The notes under the pieces are model-generated. The model made no database searches. It saw only the letters and a program-made list of their open reading frames with translations, and had not been told where the DNA came from. Below are positions 436 through 31,279 of a stretch of 45,339 nt of DNA, one piece after another (the stretch's first letter is position 1; each line of letters begins with the position of its first letter). The DNA is taken from the NCBI RefSeq assembly GCF_000153765.1, contig NZ_DS022295.1, forward strand, positions 453,095 through 498,433, in the 5' to 3' direction. Source of the DNA: Mariprofundus ferrooxydans PV-1 (GTDB taxonomy: Bacteria > Pseudomonadota > Zetaproteobacteria > Mariprofundales > Mariprofundaceae). The position numbers and the translations under genes are program-made.

Positions 436-1497
436 TTAAGCCACAGTTCCGTCGCTACCCCAGGCGAGCTGCCAGAAGCCGTAGCCTGCTGCGGCGCGCG
501 CCTCTGCACCGAAGTTGAACTCAGCACGGTTGAACACGTTGTCAGCCATCGGATCAATCTGCTGTACGAAGACAGGCGCTTTGCGGTTCTGGTAGATGAA
601 CGGCCGCACAGGCTTACTGGTATCCAGCAGGAACCAGGCTGTATCACTGGTCAGCCAGTCACCGACTACCACTTCAACCGTGCCCCTGTACGGATTCTGC
701 TTGCCATCCTCCAGGCGCTCGTTGTTGGCCAGCACATTAGCCGTATCTTCCAGAGCCGGTGGAACCAGTAGCACTTTCGGGCGCACGCCCAGTGGACGTC
801 CCTCATCATCCTTGAACTTGCGCATGGTCGTGCGGGCTACACCCAGCGATGCCTGGGCAGCAGCCAGTGTGGCGCAGGAGAGCTTCTTCGTGCCCTTATT
901 GCTCACGCTTGCCGGCAGACCTGTAGCCGGATCATTCACCGGGTGATCGATATCGAAGAAGTATTGCCCGTCGTAGCAGAGTGCTGTGAAAGCAGCATTC
1001 ACTGCTTCATACACCAGCTCGTCGGGGAGCTGTGCCGATGAATAGGCGGCCATCTGCGCCTGCGGGTTGTATATGCCCAGGTTATCATCTTCGATATCGT
1101 TGCGTTTTACTACCACCGTCGCCTCGAAATCATCGTTGACGATCGCATACTTGAAGGCTTCGAAGTTATTTATGAACTTTTCGCCAACCCATTTGCGCAT
1201 CTTGGGAAACATCGACAGCCAGGCGTAATCATTCTTGCTGCCGGTTGAAGGGACCTCCATTGCAATTTTCTGCCAGGTTGTCTCGGCACCGGTGAATGCA
1301 TTATTGAACAGTGTCTTCAGGTTGGTGAAAATGACATCAAGGGAATCCTTGTTGACCAGCAAGCCGCCGAAGGCCATGCCTGCGACGTTTTCCGGCGTGA
1401 TCAGCGTTGCGGCATGTGCCGGCTCACCGACAAACCAGCAGCAGGCGATGATGGCAAATACAGACATCGCACCTATGGTTCTGAGAATATGTTTCAT
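436..1497 (-). CDS. Mu gpT-like major capsid protein with apparent signal peptide
   Basis: A 353-residue Mu-like major head subunit. The body from about residue 33 (Ile-Thr-Pro-Glu-Asn-Val) matches the gpT pattern, including a central Asp-Ile-Asp-His-Pro-Val segment and a C-terminal Gly-Phe-Trp-Gln-Leu stretch. Oddly, residues 1-30 look like a Sec signal peptide: Lys-His-Ile-Leu-Arg, a hydrophobic stretch (about 9-23) and a Pro-Ala-His-Ala-Ala cleavage-like site. The ATG at 1497 has a GAGG ribosome site about 10 nt upstream. No in-frame ATG, GTG or TTG lies near residue 31; only a CTG codon (Leu32) does. It follows the decoration gene and precedes a strong terminator. The capsid call is firm; export of it would be unexpected. 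Confidence 0.9.
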   Translation of the reverse strand: MKHILRTIGAMSVFAIIACCWFVGEPAHAATLITPENVAGMAFGGLLVNKDSLDVIFTNLKTLFNNAFTGAETTWQKIAMEVPSTGSKNDYAWLSMFPKMRKWVGEKFINNFEAFKYAIVNDDFEATVVVKRNDIEDDNLGIYNPQAQMAAYSSAQLPDELVYEAVNAAFTALCYDGQYFFDIDHPVNDPATGLPASVSNKGTKKLSCATLAAAQASLGVARTTMRKFKDDEGRPLGVRPKVLLVPPALEDTANVLANNERLEDGKQNPYRGTVEVVVGDWLTSDTAWFLLDTSKPVRPFIYQNRKAPVFVQQIDPMADNVFNRAEFNFGAEARAAAGYGFWQLAWGSDGTVA

Positions 1498-3233: not shown

Positions 3234-3707
3234 TCAGGATATCACGCCGCTCAGATAGTGACTGACGATACCAATGATCGCTTGCTCATCGTCGGCACTG
3301 ATGCCGAGGAAGGGGCGGGCGGGGATGGTCTTGCCGGGTATCGCGCTATTGGCTGCGGTCTCGCCGCCAAACTGCTGCATGGCAGCATAGATCCGATCAC
3401 TGCCGAATGCCAATCCGTTATGATCGGCATTATAACGCATAAACCCCATCAGGTCGCCTTCACCGATCAGTATCTTGTCGGCATTCTTTTTCTTCCGCGC
3501 CTTGGTTGCATCAGTCAGCTCAGCCCAGGGGTTCCCGTCCGGATCCACCTGGTCGGCAAAATGCTGCTGGGTAGACTCCAACAGATGCTCGCCGATATCG
3601 ATAAATGCCGGCTCCAGATCACCTGTAGCCTTCTGCAGCCGCTCCAGCGCTTCCGTGATAGCCTTGTCATCATACTCGATAGATATTATCTCACTTGCAC
3701 CAGCCAT
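3234..3707 (-). CDS. Mu gpG-like virion morphogenesis protein
   Basis: A 157-residue member of the phage virion morphogenesis family (Mu gpG), a tail-completion protein needed to join or finish tails. Recognisable features are the N-terminal helix with Ala-Leu-Glu-Arg-Leu, the central Asp-Gly-Asn-Pro-Trp motif after an amphipathic helix, and C-terminal Ile-Pro-Ala-Arg-Pro-Phe-Leu-Gly. It follows the MuF gene by 103 bp, in which I see no coding frame. The ATG at 3707 has only a weak AGG upstream. The stop codon is followed by the head-operon leader. Confidence 0.88.
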   Translation of the reverse strand: MAGASEIISIEYDDKAITEALERLQKATGDLEPAFIDIGEHLLESTQQHFADQVDPDGNPWAELTDATKARKKKNADKILIGEGDLMGFMRYNADHNGLAFGSDRIYAAMQQFGGETAANSAIPGKTIPARPFLGISADDEQAIIGIVSHYLSGVIS

Positions 3708-3810
3708 CAGGTTAGCCTATGATTCCCACTGCACGTCTGCAACCGGGTGGTCTCCGCGACCCAGCAACGGGAAACAGACATTAGAAGGCTGCGCCGGAGC
3801 GTGGCCTTCT

Positions 3811-5094
3811 TCATTTTTCCCCGCGCTTGTACAGCCGGATGCCGCGCCTGTTCAGAGTAATCTTGTTATCCCATTCATCGAACTGCTTTTGATCGGACTG
3901 ATAGGACGATACACCGTTCCAGCCATCTTTATCGTACTCGAACACACTCCAGGCTGCCTGCCGTTCTCCATTAATGGTATGTCGGGAGAGATAAACGCGC
4001 CGGGCAACCGTGCGCTTTGTGGCCCGATGGTATTCCATGAAGGCCCATATTTCATCAGGATCCCGCACGGTATCGGCCAGCAGTAGCAGGTAGCGATCAC
4101 GATCGCGGCGCATTTTCCATGCGCCGGTATGATCCTTGAACAGATCATCGGAGATCACCATTGATTCGCCGGCAACATCAGTGAACACCACCGGCTTGCC
4201 GATATCGGCTTTGAACGCCTGCAGGAATGCGCTGGCATAGGCCTCTTCCTTACCGGCCGGCATCGGCGGCAGCAGCTTCTTTGCCGGGAACGGGCGTGGA
4301 TCCGGCATCAGATCGTGAGACGCACGATCGGGGATGATGCGGAAATGGGCATCGCGCTTGTTAAACGGCGATGGTGCATCCATTTTTTCCGCCGGCACAT
4401 GGGCATGCATCCAGGCCGAACGGCCGGGCGCATAGGCGAAGCCGGGGCCAATACCTTTCGGCACGCTAACCGTGCGCGGGTTGGGGCCGCGCGTGCCGAT
4501 TGTTTTCTGCTCCATTTCGATCTTCGGCGACTGCGATGGTGTAAGCCCTTTGGCTGCCATACGCTGCTTGCTCAGGCCGGTGACCCAGCATTTGCAGCCG
4601 AAATCGTTGGGCGGGTAGTGGGTGAGCCAGAATGGATCATCCTTAGGCAGGATCAGCCCATCCCAGTCGACATGCTGCTTCCGTGGATCTTCGGAGGCAG
4701 GCGAATGGTGATATTGCCAGTACTCCAGCTTTTGCAGCTGCTCGAAGCGGCCGGCAGCATAGCTGGTGCGCAAGTTGGTTTGATAGATCACCTTGGTGCG
4801 CCAGGCGCGGCCGGCCTTTGTGCCTTCACCGGTCCAGCCGGTCCAGCCGCGCTCGGCCACAATGCGATCGAAATCCTTGCGGAACTCATGCAGCGTAGTG
4901 CCGTTCTCAATCGCCTTTTGCACCGCGCCCTGCATATCGGTGACCAGATCCATGCGCGTGGCGCCAGCAACAACGAAGGCATGATCGTGCTCGCCGTGCA
5001 TGATATCGGTCCAGGAGCGCGACGGCATGGCCAGCTTCTTTCTGAAGAAGGCAATCTGCGCATCGAACGGCAGCGAGCCGTATTTAACGGCCAT
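3811..5094 (-). CDS. MuF-like head morphogenesis protein fused to a PBECR2-type nuclease domain
   Basis: A 427-residue protein. Residues about 55-190 form the MuF (Mu gp30) minor head domain, with Tyr-Gln-Thr-Asn-Leu-Arg-Thr, His-Val-Asp-Trp-Asp-Gly and a Cys-Lys-Cys pair (167, 169) near its end. A Pro-rich linker leads to a C-terminal domain (about 295-424) resembling PBECR2, a phage-linked fold related to Barnase/EndoU/ColicinE5/RelE nucleases: Pro-Val-Val-Phe-Thr-Asp, Asp-Arg-Tyr-Leu-Leu-Leu-Leu-Ala-Asp, Pro-Asp-Glu-Ile-Trp and a terminal Arg-Arg-Gly-Ile-Arg-Leu-Tyr. MuF proteins are packaged in the head and such fusions are thought to be ejected effectors. No immunity gene is evident beside it; the preceding gene encodes a 52-residue membrane peptide. 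The fusion is recognised from motifs, not a profile search. Confidence 0.87.
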   Translation of the reverse strand: MAVKYGSLPFDAQIAFFRKKLAMPSRSWTDIMHGEHDHAFVVAGATRMDLVTDMQGAVQKAIENGTTLHEFRKDFDRIVAERGWTGWTGEGTKAGRAWRTKVIYQTNLRTSYAAGRFEQLQKLEYWQYHHSPASEDPRKQHVDWDGLILPKDDPFWLTHYPPNDFGCKCWVTGLSKQRMAAKGLTPSQSPKIEMEQKTIGTRGPNPRTVSVPKGIGPGFAYAPGRSAWMHAHVPAEKMDAPSPFNKRDAHFRIIPDRASHDLMPDPRPFPAKKLLPPMPAGKEEAYASAFLQAFKADIGKPVVFTDVAGESMVISDDLFKDHTGAWKMRRDRDRYLLLLADTVRDPDEIWAFMEYHRATKRTVARRVYLSRHTINGERQAAWSVFEYDKDGWNGVSSYQSDQKQFDEWDNKITLNRRGIRLYKRGEK

Positions 5095-5178
5095 AGTCAG
5101 AACCTTTCACCGGCCTCTCCTGCGCATCCTGCGCGCGAGGCATTTGGGCTCCTGCCCGGCACCCGGTCGCAGAGTAAA

Positions 5179-5337
5179 TCATCTTTTATCGCGGTCCATC
5201 AAGTGAGCCAGCAATAGGAATACAGCTACATTGGCATCACTAACCAGCAACCAGTGCCAGTCTGAATTGTGGCCAAGCGCAGATAAGATAGTGCATGAAA
5301 TGCAGATCAATAATGATGCAATATAGTTATTCTTCAT
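5179..5337 (-). CDS. Small membrane protein between portal and MuF genes
   Basis: A 52-residue protein not otherwise recognised. The ATG at 5337 has a strong GGAGG ribosome site. Two hydrophobic segments, about residues 6-21 (Ile-Ala-Ser-Leu-Leu-Ile-Cys) and 29-45 (Trp-Leu-Leu-Val, Val-Phe-Leu-Leu-Leu-Ala), are joined by a polar His-Asn-Ser-Asp-Trp-His turn. The tail is charged (Asp-Arg-Asp-Lys-Arg). It lies between portal and MuF, which are adjacent in Mu, so it is an insertion relative to Mu. Its ribosome site falls within or next to the 29 bp repeat shared with host DNA. An exclusion or immunity role is possible but unproven. Confidence 0.65.
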   Translation of the reverse strand: MKNNYIASLLICISCTILSALGHNSDWHWLLVSDANVAVFLLLAHLMDRDKR

Positions 5338-5342
5338 GCCTT

Positions 5343-5371
5343 CCTCCGTGTCCTTCGTGTACTCTGTGGTG
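5343..5371. repeat. 29 bp dispersed repeat, prophage copy
   Basis: Matches 31,232-31,260 upstream of hemE at 27 of 29 positions. Read on the minus strand it begins CACCACAGAG and ends GGAGG, and here it supplies the ribosome site of the 52-residue membrane protein. Repeats of the CACCACAGAGGACAC type occur in many proteobacterial genomes (general recollection, not checked). Confidence 0.8.
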
Positions 5372-5390
5372 CGAGTTCTGTGGTGTGTGC

Positions 5391-6977
5391 CTATTGCCCC
5401 TGGCTTACTTCGTACTGGCCTTCCAGGTTGGCTGTGGCGAATGCCTTATCCATCAGCTCGGTGAGGGCAGACGTGTCCATTGTGCCGAGCAGCTCCGGCA
5501 GCCGATCGGCGAACTCGGAGAGATCAGCACACTCATCCATCAGCGATCGTGCCTGATTCACCATCGCATCGGTAATCGGTTCGGCTTCACGCGCCAGCTG
5601 CTCGGCCAACCTGTCTGATGTATCGGGTGATGCCGAAGCCTCGGCAAATGAAGCTGTCGGAGTGGATACCTTCAGCGCAGCAGATCCGGATGAAGGCGGC
5701 GTGGCTGGCTTATCCGCGCGCATCAATACCGGCTGGCCTTCTTCCGGGATAGGAATACCAAGCTTCTCATTCGGATAGTTCCGTGGCACCTGCACACCGG
5801 CGCCGACAAGCCTATCCAGCGCTTTGGAGAACGGCTCCATATCTTCAGTTTCTGTTGTATCAAAGGCGAAGCGATACATGCGCCGGCTGTTCTCAACCCG
5901 GATGCCATTAAGCACGGCATACGGGAATACCATATCCCTTGTCAGTGTGCCGGCAATCTGCCTGGCATCGCTGATAAGCAGATCATGACGCACCTCGTTG
6001 TGTACATCACCGAGGTTTGAGCCCAAGCCCGTGCTCTGTGCACTGGTTGTAAGTGTGCCTCCAAGAATGGCCTTGGATTGGGTTCCCTCGCACCAGTCCA
6101 TCATGCACTTGTATGGATCGGCAGCACCCTTGGCGGCTTCGGTGAAATCAATGGCCATGCCATCGGGTATGATGCCGGCAGCTGCATGCCCGATCTGGGT
6201 AACGGCGCGCAGCAGTGTCATTTTATCGTCCTGTGTTGCGCCGGATGGATATTTGCCCAGGCGCAGCGGCAGGCCGTAGATCTCCAGAAATTCGGCCAGA
6301 TCGCGCACACTGAAATTCTTGAACAGGTATGGCCATGCAAGAATGCGGAACAGGCCGGCGCGTGCAATGTACCCGGACTTGGCCTTGTGCACATGCTGAA
6401 TCCAGCTAAACGGTTGCAACTCTTCACCCATACTGCTCATGCCGCGCAGACGCAGCTCATTGAGATCATAAGGGTTGAGCATGAACCATTCGGGCGGCCG
6501 GTGGGTTATCTCATTGAGCATCCACTCACGGCCCGCATTCTCCCACTCATATTCCAGGTGGCTGAACCCCTTGCCAATGGCATCGGCCATATCGAACAGC
6601 ACATCCTCGAAGTTTTCTATATCCTGGATCATTTCGGTAAGTCGCTCGGCATTGGCCTGTTCTGCAGCCGTGGCGCCACGCGGCGGCTTGATACACCAGT
6701 CAAGCCCCAGAATGGCGCGTTTCCGCTTGGATAGCTCAGCGAAAATATGGCCGTCCTTCTCCTCCATATCCTCAAACAGTTCGCACTGAGACCGGATATT
6801 GCCATGCTCGGCCTCTTGCAGAATGGCAGCCAGCCTGCCTGGCGTTAGCCCGCGCGACGGATGGCTGGAAAACTCACGATATAGCGAACCGACCAGGGCG
6901 TCCTGTCGCCTAGTTTGCTCTTCCTGCAGGGCAGCCATATCCACTTCATTGCCGCGATGATCGTATAGTTTCACCAT
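5391..6977 (-). CDS. Mu gp29-like portal protein (DUF935)
   Basis: A 528-residue portal protein of the DUF935 family, close to Mu gp29 in size. It forms the ring at the head vertex through which DNA is packaged and to which the tail joins. Visible family segments are Arg-Gly-Leu-Thr-Pro-Gly-Arg-Leu-Ala near residue 43, Lys-Arg-Lys-Arg-Ala-Ile-Leu-Gly-Leu-Asp-Trp near 82, Gly-Phe-Ser-His-Leu-Glu-Tyr-Glu-Trp near 152, and Tyr-Gly-Leu-Pro-Leu-Arg-Leu-Gly-Lys-Tyr near 234. The C-terminal 100 residues are Ala/Ser/Thr-rich and variable. The start overlaps the end of the terminase gene by 7 bp. Confidence 0.94.
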   Translation of the reverse strand: MVKLYDHRGNEVDMAALQEEQTRRQDALVGSLYREFSSHPSRGLTPGRLAAILQEAEHGNIRSQCELFEDMEEKDGHIFAELSKRKRAILGLDWCIKPPRGATAAEQANAERLTEMIQDIENFEDVLFDMADAIGKGFSHLEYEWENAGREWMLNEITHRPPEWFMLNPYDLNELRLRGMSSMGEELQPFSWIQHVHKAKSGYIARAGLFRILAWPYLFKNFSVRDLAEFLEIYGLPLRLGKYPSGATQDDKMTLLRAVTQIGHAAAGIIPDGMAIDFTEAAKGAADPYKCMMDWCEGTQSKAILGGTLTTSAQSTGLGSNLGDVHNEVRHDLLISDARQIAGTLTRDMVFPYAVLNGIRVENSRRMYRFAFDTTETEDMEPFSKALDRLVGAGVQVPRNYPNEKLGIPIPEEGQPVLMRADKPATPPSSGSAALKVSTPTASFAEASASPDTSDRLAEQLAREAEPITDAMVNQARSLMDECADLSEFADRLPELLGTMDTSALTELMDKAFATANLEGQYEVSQGQ

Positions 6978-31231: not shown

Positions 31232-31260
31232 CCTCTGTGTCCTTCGTGTCCTCTGTGGTG
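31232..31260. repeat. 29 bp dispersed repeat, host copy
   Basis: Matches the prophage copy at 5,343-5,371 with two mismatches. It lies 20 bp upstream of the hemE start in the 142 bp thiG-hemE gap, which otherwise shows no gene. Confidence 0.8.
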
Positions 31261-31279
31261 AGAAAAAAGGAATATAAGA

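Follow-up and report, generated by a model that had tools for sequence, protein, structure and literature searches.

MuF-PBECR fusions were described by Iyer et al. in 2017 (PMC5512222), so such a fusion alone is of a known kind. In the passages of that paper on these proteins, the BECR active site is defined by a His in the N-terminal helix, replaced by Arg in one family, and a Ser or Thr in strand 4, and Mu gpF is assigned an inactive PBECR domain and its orthologues active ones. The window (the whole 45,339-nucleotide stretch of DNA analyzed) encodes the same MuF-PBECR architecture; those passages mention no adjacent RNA and do not link active-site loss to a neighboring element. Polymorphic toxins of temperate phages that combine a MuF N terminus with exchangeable C-terminal toxin domains were described by Jamet et al. 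in 2017 (PMC5576092). The conserved N terminus and exchangeable C-terminal domains are shared with the locus in the window, whereas those systems have a small protein ORF after the toxin gene and the window has, on the opposite strand, a gene for a structured RNA. The type III toxin-antitoxin systems ToxIN, CptIN and TenpIN likewise consist of a protein of endoribonuclease type and an RNA partner with a pseudoknot-like fold, but the window protein is a head protein of an unrelated family, and its RNA is a single unit located downstream on the opposite strand instead of an upstream, co-transcribed repeat array. In the Bacillus type I system txpA/RatA, a convergent antisense RNA overlaps the toxin transcript at its 3′ end. 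The window resembles it in having a convergent RNA gene over the 3′ end of the putative toxin transcript and differs in that the toxin would be a large head-protein domain and the RNA has a conserved tertiary pairing. The RNA in the gap between genes F and G and its link to the active site are the new part of this work, and the RNA may be the equivalent, in RNA, of the immunity genes that encode proteins in polymorphic toxin systems.

The locus is part of a Mu-like prophage, and Pfam and PHROGs identify gp27, terminase, portal, G, I-protease and gpT as its Mu-like neighbors. A zetaproteobacterial host is probable, the closest named relatives being Mariprofundaceae. The MuF-PBECR2 gene (3811–5094, minus strand) encodes a 427-residue minor head protein homologous to Mu F/gp30 that matches the PHROGs annotation 'minor head protein and DNA pilot' with E = 6.8e-90. 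The gene lies within the head cluster, flanked by the portal protein gene upstream (Mu gp29; 5391–6977, minus strand; Pfam E = 1.1e-98) and a gpG homologue downstream (Phage_tail_S; 3234–3707, minus strand; Pfam E = 5.8e-36). The Phage_Mu_F domain (PF04233) covers residues 54 to 171 (4582–4935, minus strand; E = 3e-13) and is separated by a Pro-rich linker at about residues 235 to 285 from the PBECR2 RNase-like domain (PF18810) at residues 289 to 413 (3856–4230, minus strand; E = 1.1e-25), which scores 90.6 bits against a curated Pfam cut-off of 27.1. These matches confirm the preliminary description, which had read 3811–5094 as a MuF head protein fused to a C-terminal PBECR2 domain behind a Pro-rich linker. 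They are the only Pfam matches in the protein, and the putative toxin falls outside the ToxN, CptN and TenpN families. The ORF of the gpT major head protein (window 436–1497) has a signal-peptide-like start (MKHILRTIGAMSVFAIIACCWFVGEPAHA), possibly reflecting a wrong start codon.

AlphaFold2 models the window PBECR2 domain (57 sequences, pLDDT 92.9) as four long strands preceded by a helix. Comparison of conservation between the two groups of homologues described below gives K327 (4114–4116), R332 (4099–4101) and S396 (3907–3909, all minus strand) as active-site candidates, with R329 and Y286 as further candidates. In the model, R332 is at the start of the helix that precedes the four strands and S396 is in the fourth strand, a predicted placement matching the published BECR definition (PMC5512222). 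With K327, R332 and S396 in place, the window domain is of the type with an intact predicted active site. Foldseek against the PDB returned no solved relative of the window domain at E < 0.001 and no significant match to a known nuclease fold for either model, so the term RNase draws on the family assignment and the active-site residues. The predicted helix and four strands agree with a BECR fold, and the structure search gave no match to a solved nuclease.

The F-G gap in the window is 103 nucleotides long, has no ORF and contains a small RNA gene on the plus strand (3730–3818, approximate ends), as predicted from its fold (z = −2.5), an alignment with relatives and covariation within the family. 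The outer stem pairs 3735–3739 with 3775–3779, the inner stem pairs 3745–3748 with 3759–3762, and kissing pairs form between CUCCG at 3752–3756 and CGGAG at 3795–3799 (all plus strand). Upstream is a predicted sigma70-like promoter (3695–3723, plus strand) consisting of TTGCAC at 3695–3700, a 17-nucleotide spacer and TATGAT at 3718–3723; its −35 element overlaps the first codons of G and is partly constrained by them. The RNA ends in an intrinsic terminator (3783–3818, plus strand) with a hairpin at 3783–3810 and a T-rich tract at 3811–3818. When the window is aligned with five close relatives, the same stems and kissing helix are present, and compensatory changes give kissing pairs such as CUCCG/CGGAG, UUCCGG/CCGGAA, UUCCAG/CUGGAA and CCCAG/CUGGG. 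The covariation score of the window's own group is 0.356 versus 0.182 (0/500 shuffles). The RNA had no match in Rfam 15 at gathering score, the weak sRNA matches found there were far below gathering scores and were rejected as an identity, and a search of the open-access literature returned no report of such an RNA. As judged from its sequences, the RNA is an undescribed family with strong pseudoknot covariation.

The F-G distance in relatives is either about zero or about 90 to 140 nucleotides without an ORF. In their common architecture, the gaps have one hairpin at the F end and a compound hairpin in front of G, with complementary loops. Pairing was scored on the strand opposite the late genes: 32 sequences have 94.7% of cells paired, and their covariation score is 0.704, compared to 0.195 ± 0.014 for shuffled alignments and no more than 0.14 when partners are slid. 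The kissing (loop-loop) helix is 96.3% paired and has double-sided changes in five of its six pairs. The opposite strand has 28 G·U and 6 A·C mismatches (p = 2e-4), and it carries a T tract after the hairpin in 40 of 46 relatives, compared with 7 of 46 for the late strand (p = 8e-9). A structured element on the late strand was therefore rejected, since its mismatches would be A·C instead of G·U and the T tract lies on the other strand. The promoter-like sequence TTGCxC-17-TAtAcT is found upstream of the RNA in relatives, with a −35 that overlaps conserved G codons.

Two models, R1 and R2, were built for the RNAs of gamma- and betaproteobacterial phages; among the MuF loci searched they match PBECR2 loci only. 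The models miss divergent members, the window copy included, which were recognized as this RNA by their architecture. R2 gave five matches over 398 genomes, three of them adjoining MuF. Weak R2 matches away from MuF (4970–5060 on the minus strand of the JBD67 record, and in L178 and L179) are due either to chance or to remote relatives of the RNA. The RNA was absent elsewhere in the full records of gap-less phages that were searched, save for a weak match in the JBD67 early region. Two isolated phages, RcWaterboi of Rhodobacter and RR1-B of Rhizobium, combine an intact PBECR2 with an RNA that has a 6-bp kissing helix, and are the best bench models. The gap RNA of L234 and L241 has a tRNA-like look, with a 7-bp acceptor-like stem, a T-arm-like CCUGUUCGAAUCAGG and a terminator; tRNA mimicry by the L234 RNA was discarded after ARAGORN called no tRNA. 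In L033, L034, L108 and L230, the junction has extra sequence flanking the RNA toward either F or G, suggesting that the F-G junction also takes cargo.

The presence of the RNA was compared with the state of the PBECR2 active site. The RNA was scored as present on a model match or an F-G gap of 60 to 180 nucleotides, with divergent clades scored by gap and architecture, and the sample is weighted toward loci close to the window's protein. Every one of the 101 distinct PBECR2 domains whose gap is 60 to 180 nucleotides has K327, R/H332 and T/S396. K327 is present in none of the 44 distinct domains with a gap below 40 nucleotides; R/H332 is also missing from 43 of these, and T/S396 is still found in 32. 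The fold residues D306, G309, A340, P346, E348, W350, R366, Y368, W392, R416 and G418 are common to both groups, and the complete set K327, K/R329, R/H332 and T/S396 occurs only in domains with a gap. Domains with larger gaps are intact in nine cases and dead in one (L129); in the resolvable intact cases the RNA lies directly after F or beyond inserted sequence, with L159 and L303 outside these. About a quarter of the distinct PBECR2 homologues have no RNA, and their predicted active site is dead. At least a dozen near-identical Mu-like MuF loci (L142–L154) are found on different contigs of Methylophaga thiooxydans DMS010.

A tree was calculated from the N-terminal half of the protein with the active-site residues excluded. 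The best tree has at least 10 changes in RNA presence, each accompanied by a change in K327. On well-supported branches, the RNA and K327 change together in five of five independent pairs; the sign test on these branches alone gives p = 0.06, so the strength of the result lies in the absence of exceptions. The pairing between the RNA and the predicted active site is well supported by these comparisons, and the presence of the RNA would predict which phages carry a live nuclease.

The RNA appears to be dispensable with a dead nuclease and kept with a live one, an antidote-like pattern. We think it probable, with considerable room for doubt, that the locus encodes an RNase delivered in virions and a matching antidote RNA that binds PBECR2 in a type III-like manner. 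The minor head protein would bring the BECR-type endoribonuclease domain into the next host together with the phage DNA. The RNA, folded into two hairpins locked by the loop-loop kissing helix, would be expressed from its own opposite-strand promoter and could work both in the lysogen and shortly after entry. It would most likely bind and block the PBECR2 active site, which would make it a type III-like RNA antitoxin. The lysogen or producing cell would be protected, and so would a newly infected cell after transcription of the phage genome; exposure would persist in cells that destroy the phage DNA after the nuclease has entered, or that have no prophage. We infer virion delivery, RNase activity, expression in the lysogen and, from co-distribution only, direct inhibition of the nuclease by the RNA. 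The earlier proposal of an RNase-like effector on the head protein gains from the PBECR2 identity, the intact predicted site and the exchange of C-terminal domains described below; ejection into the host has the conditional standing just given. Several points weigh against the antidote reading: a cofactor or substrate RNA would be co-distributed in the same way, only five of the changes are on well-supported branches, RNA presence was scored in part by gap length and architecture, the −35 element is under some constraint from G codons, and neither structural model has a solved nuclease as a Foldseek match. What the C-terminal half does in Mu gpF homologues becomes directly testable through the pairing, and the RNA may offer an antidote for expressing the nuclease.

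The alternative that survives best, though we consider it unlikely, is type I-like antisense control, in which the RNA pairs with the F-G late mRNA and RNase III decay curbs leaky synthesis of the nuclease without touching the protein. The position of the RNA directly after F on the opposite strand and its full complementarity to the late mRNA fit this mechanism, which predicts the active-site co-distribution equally well. A perfectly complementary RNA could do without a conserved fold, whereas strong covariation is seen in both the stems and the internal kissing helix, and other BECR domains have differently folded RNAs. The covarying kissing helix favors a fold recognized by a protein over antisense pairing, and the type III-like antidote is preferred for this reason. 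Less probable still is a partner role in which the RNA is a cofactor, guide or preferred substrate in a ribonucleoprotein with the MuF protein. Co-distribution with the active site fits a cofactor and an inhibitor alike, but the RNA is predicted to have a promoter and a terminator of its own on the opposite strand, and the RNA-less quarter of homologues occurs only with a dead site, for which relief from toxicity is the simpler fit. It is very unlikely that PBECR2 is a structural or RNA-binding part of the head and no toxin. The 44 distinct homologues that retain the fold residues after losing active-site residues speak for such a part, as does the RNA binding that Iyer et al. propose for Mu gpF in the passages on that protein (PMC5512222), but the full K-R/H-T/S set is kept in 101 of 101 RNA-associated members. 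The terminator and promoter-like sequences in the gap could belong to a late-operon regulatory element unrelated to the nuclease and associated with it by lineage, but this is hardly credible given about 10 independent changes matched by the active site each time, a rule seen in three domain types and a kissing loop that covaries.

The C-terminal domain of MuF is exchanged between related Mu-like phages (PBECR2, MuF_C, PBECR3, ART and zincin) and the N terminus is conserved, which supports a predicted effector role of the C-terminal domain. In MuF_C (PF18819, the Mu gpF type), the motifs D..H..R..K and N.[VIL][RN][TS] are present in 8/8 proteins with a gap of at least 110 nucleotides and in 0/10 with a gap below 10 nucleotides, Mu and JBD67 included. 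In a divergent His-type PBECR2-like clade, the helix His is found in all members with a measured gap and in neither of the two gap-less members. MuF_C and PBECR3 gaps have opposite-strand promoter-like boxes and differently folded RNAs, as far as the few sequences go. A 73-residue ORF lies downstream of the MuF-ART protein of L004, and a 65-residue ORF downstream of the MuF-zincin protein of the Vibrio phage L330. The RNase-type domains thus go with gap RNAs and these two other toxins with a small ORF. We give an even chance to the generalization that several BECR-type MuF domains (PBECR2, the His-type clade, MuF_C and PBECR3) each have their own structured, opposite-strand antidote RNA in the F-G junction and that loss of the RNA is accompanied by loss of catalytic residues. 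Such guarded virion RNases, if real, would to our knowledge represent the first case in which immunity to a polymorphic toxin delivered by virions is based on RNA.

Immunity had been sought in the preliminary description as a protein gene, and the likely antidote, an RNA gene directly downstream on the opposite strand, was overlooked. Its judgment that the 52-residue membrane protein encoded upstream is not an obvious immunity protein was correct. This ORF (5179–5337) is within the portal-F slot (5095–5390, minus strand), whose length and content vary among relatives. Because of this position and because it is unique to this prophage, with no relatives among 40 related genomes, it was ruled out as an immunity gene. 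The slot in Pseudomonas phages often contains unrelated small ORFs of 70 to 230 residues on the opposite strand, and this variable content gives it the look of a moron or cargo slot. A segment of approximately 31 bp resembling CACCACAGAGTACACGAAGGACACGGAGG lies upstream of the 52-residue ORF at about 5341–5374 and repeats at several other sites in the genome; one copy is inside the window at about 31232–31263.
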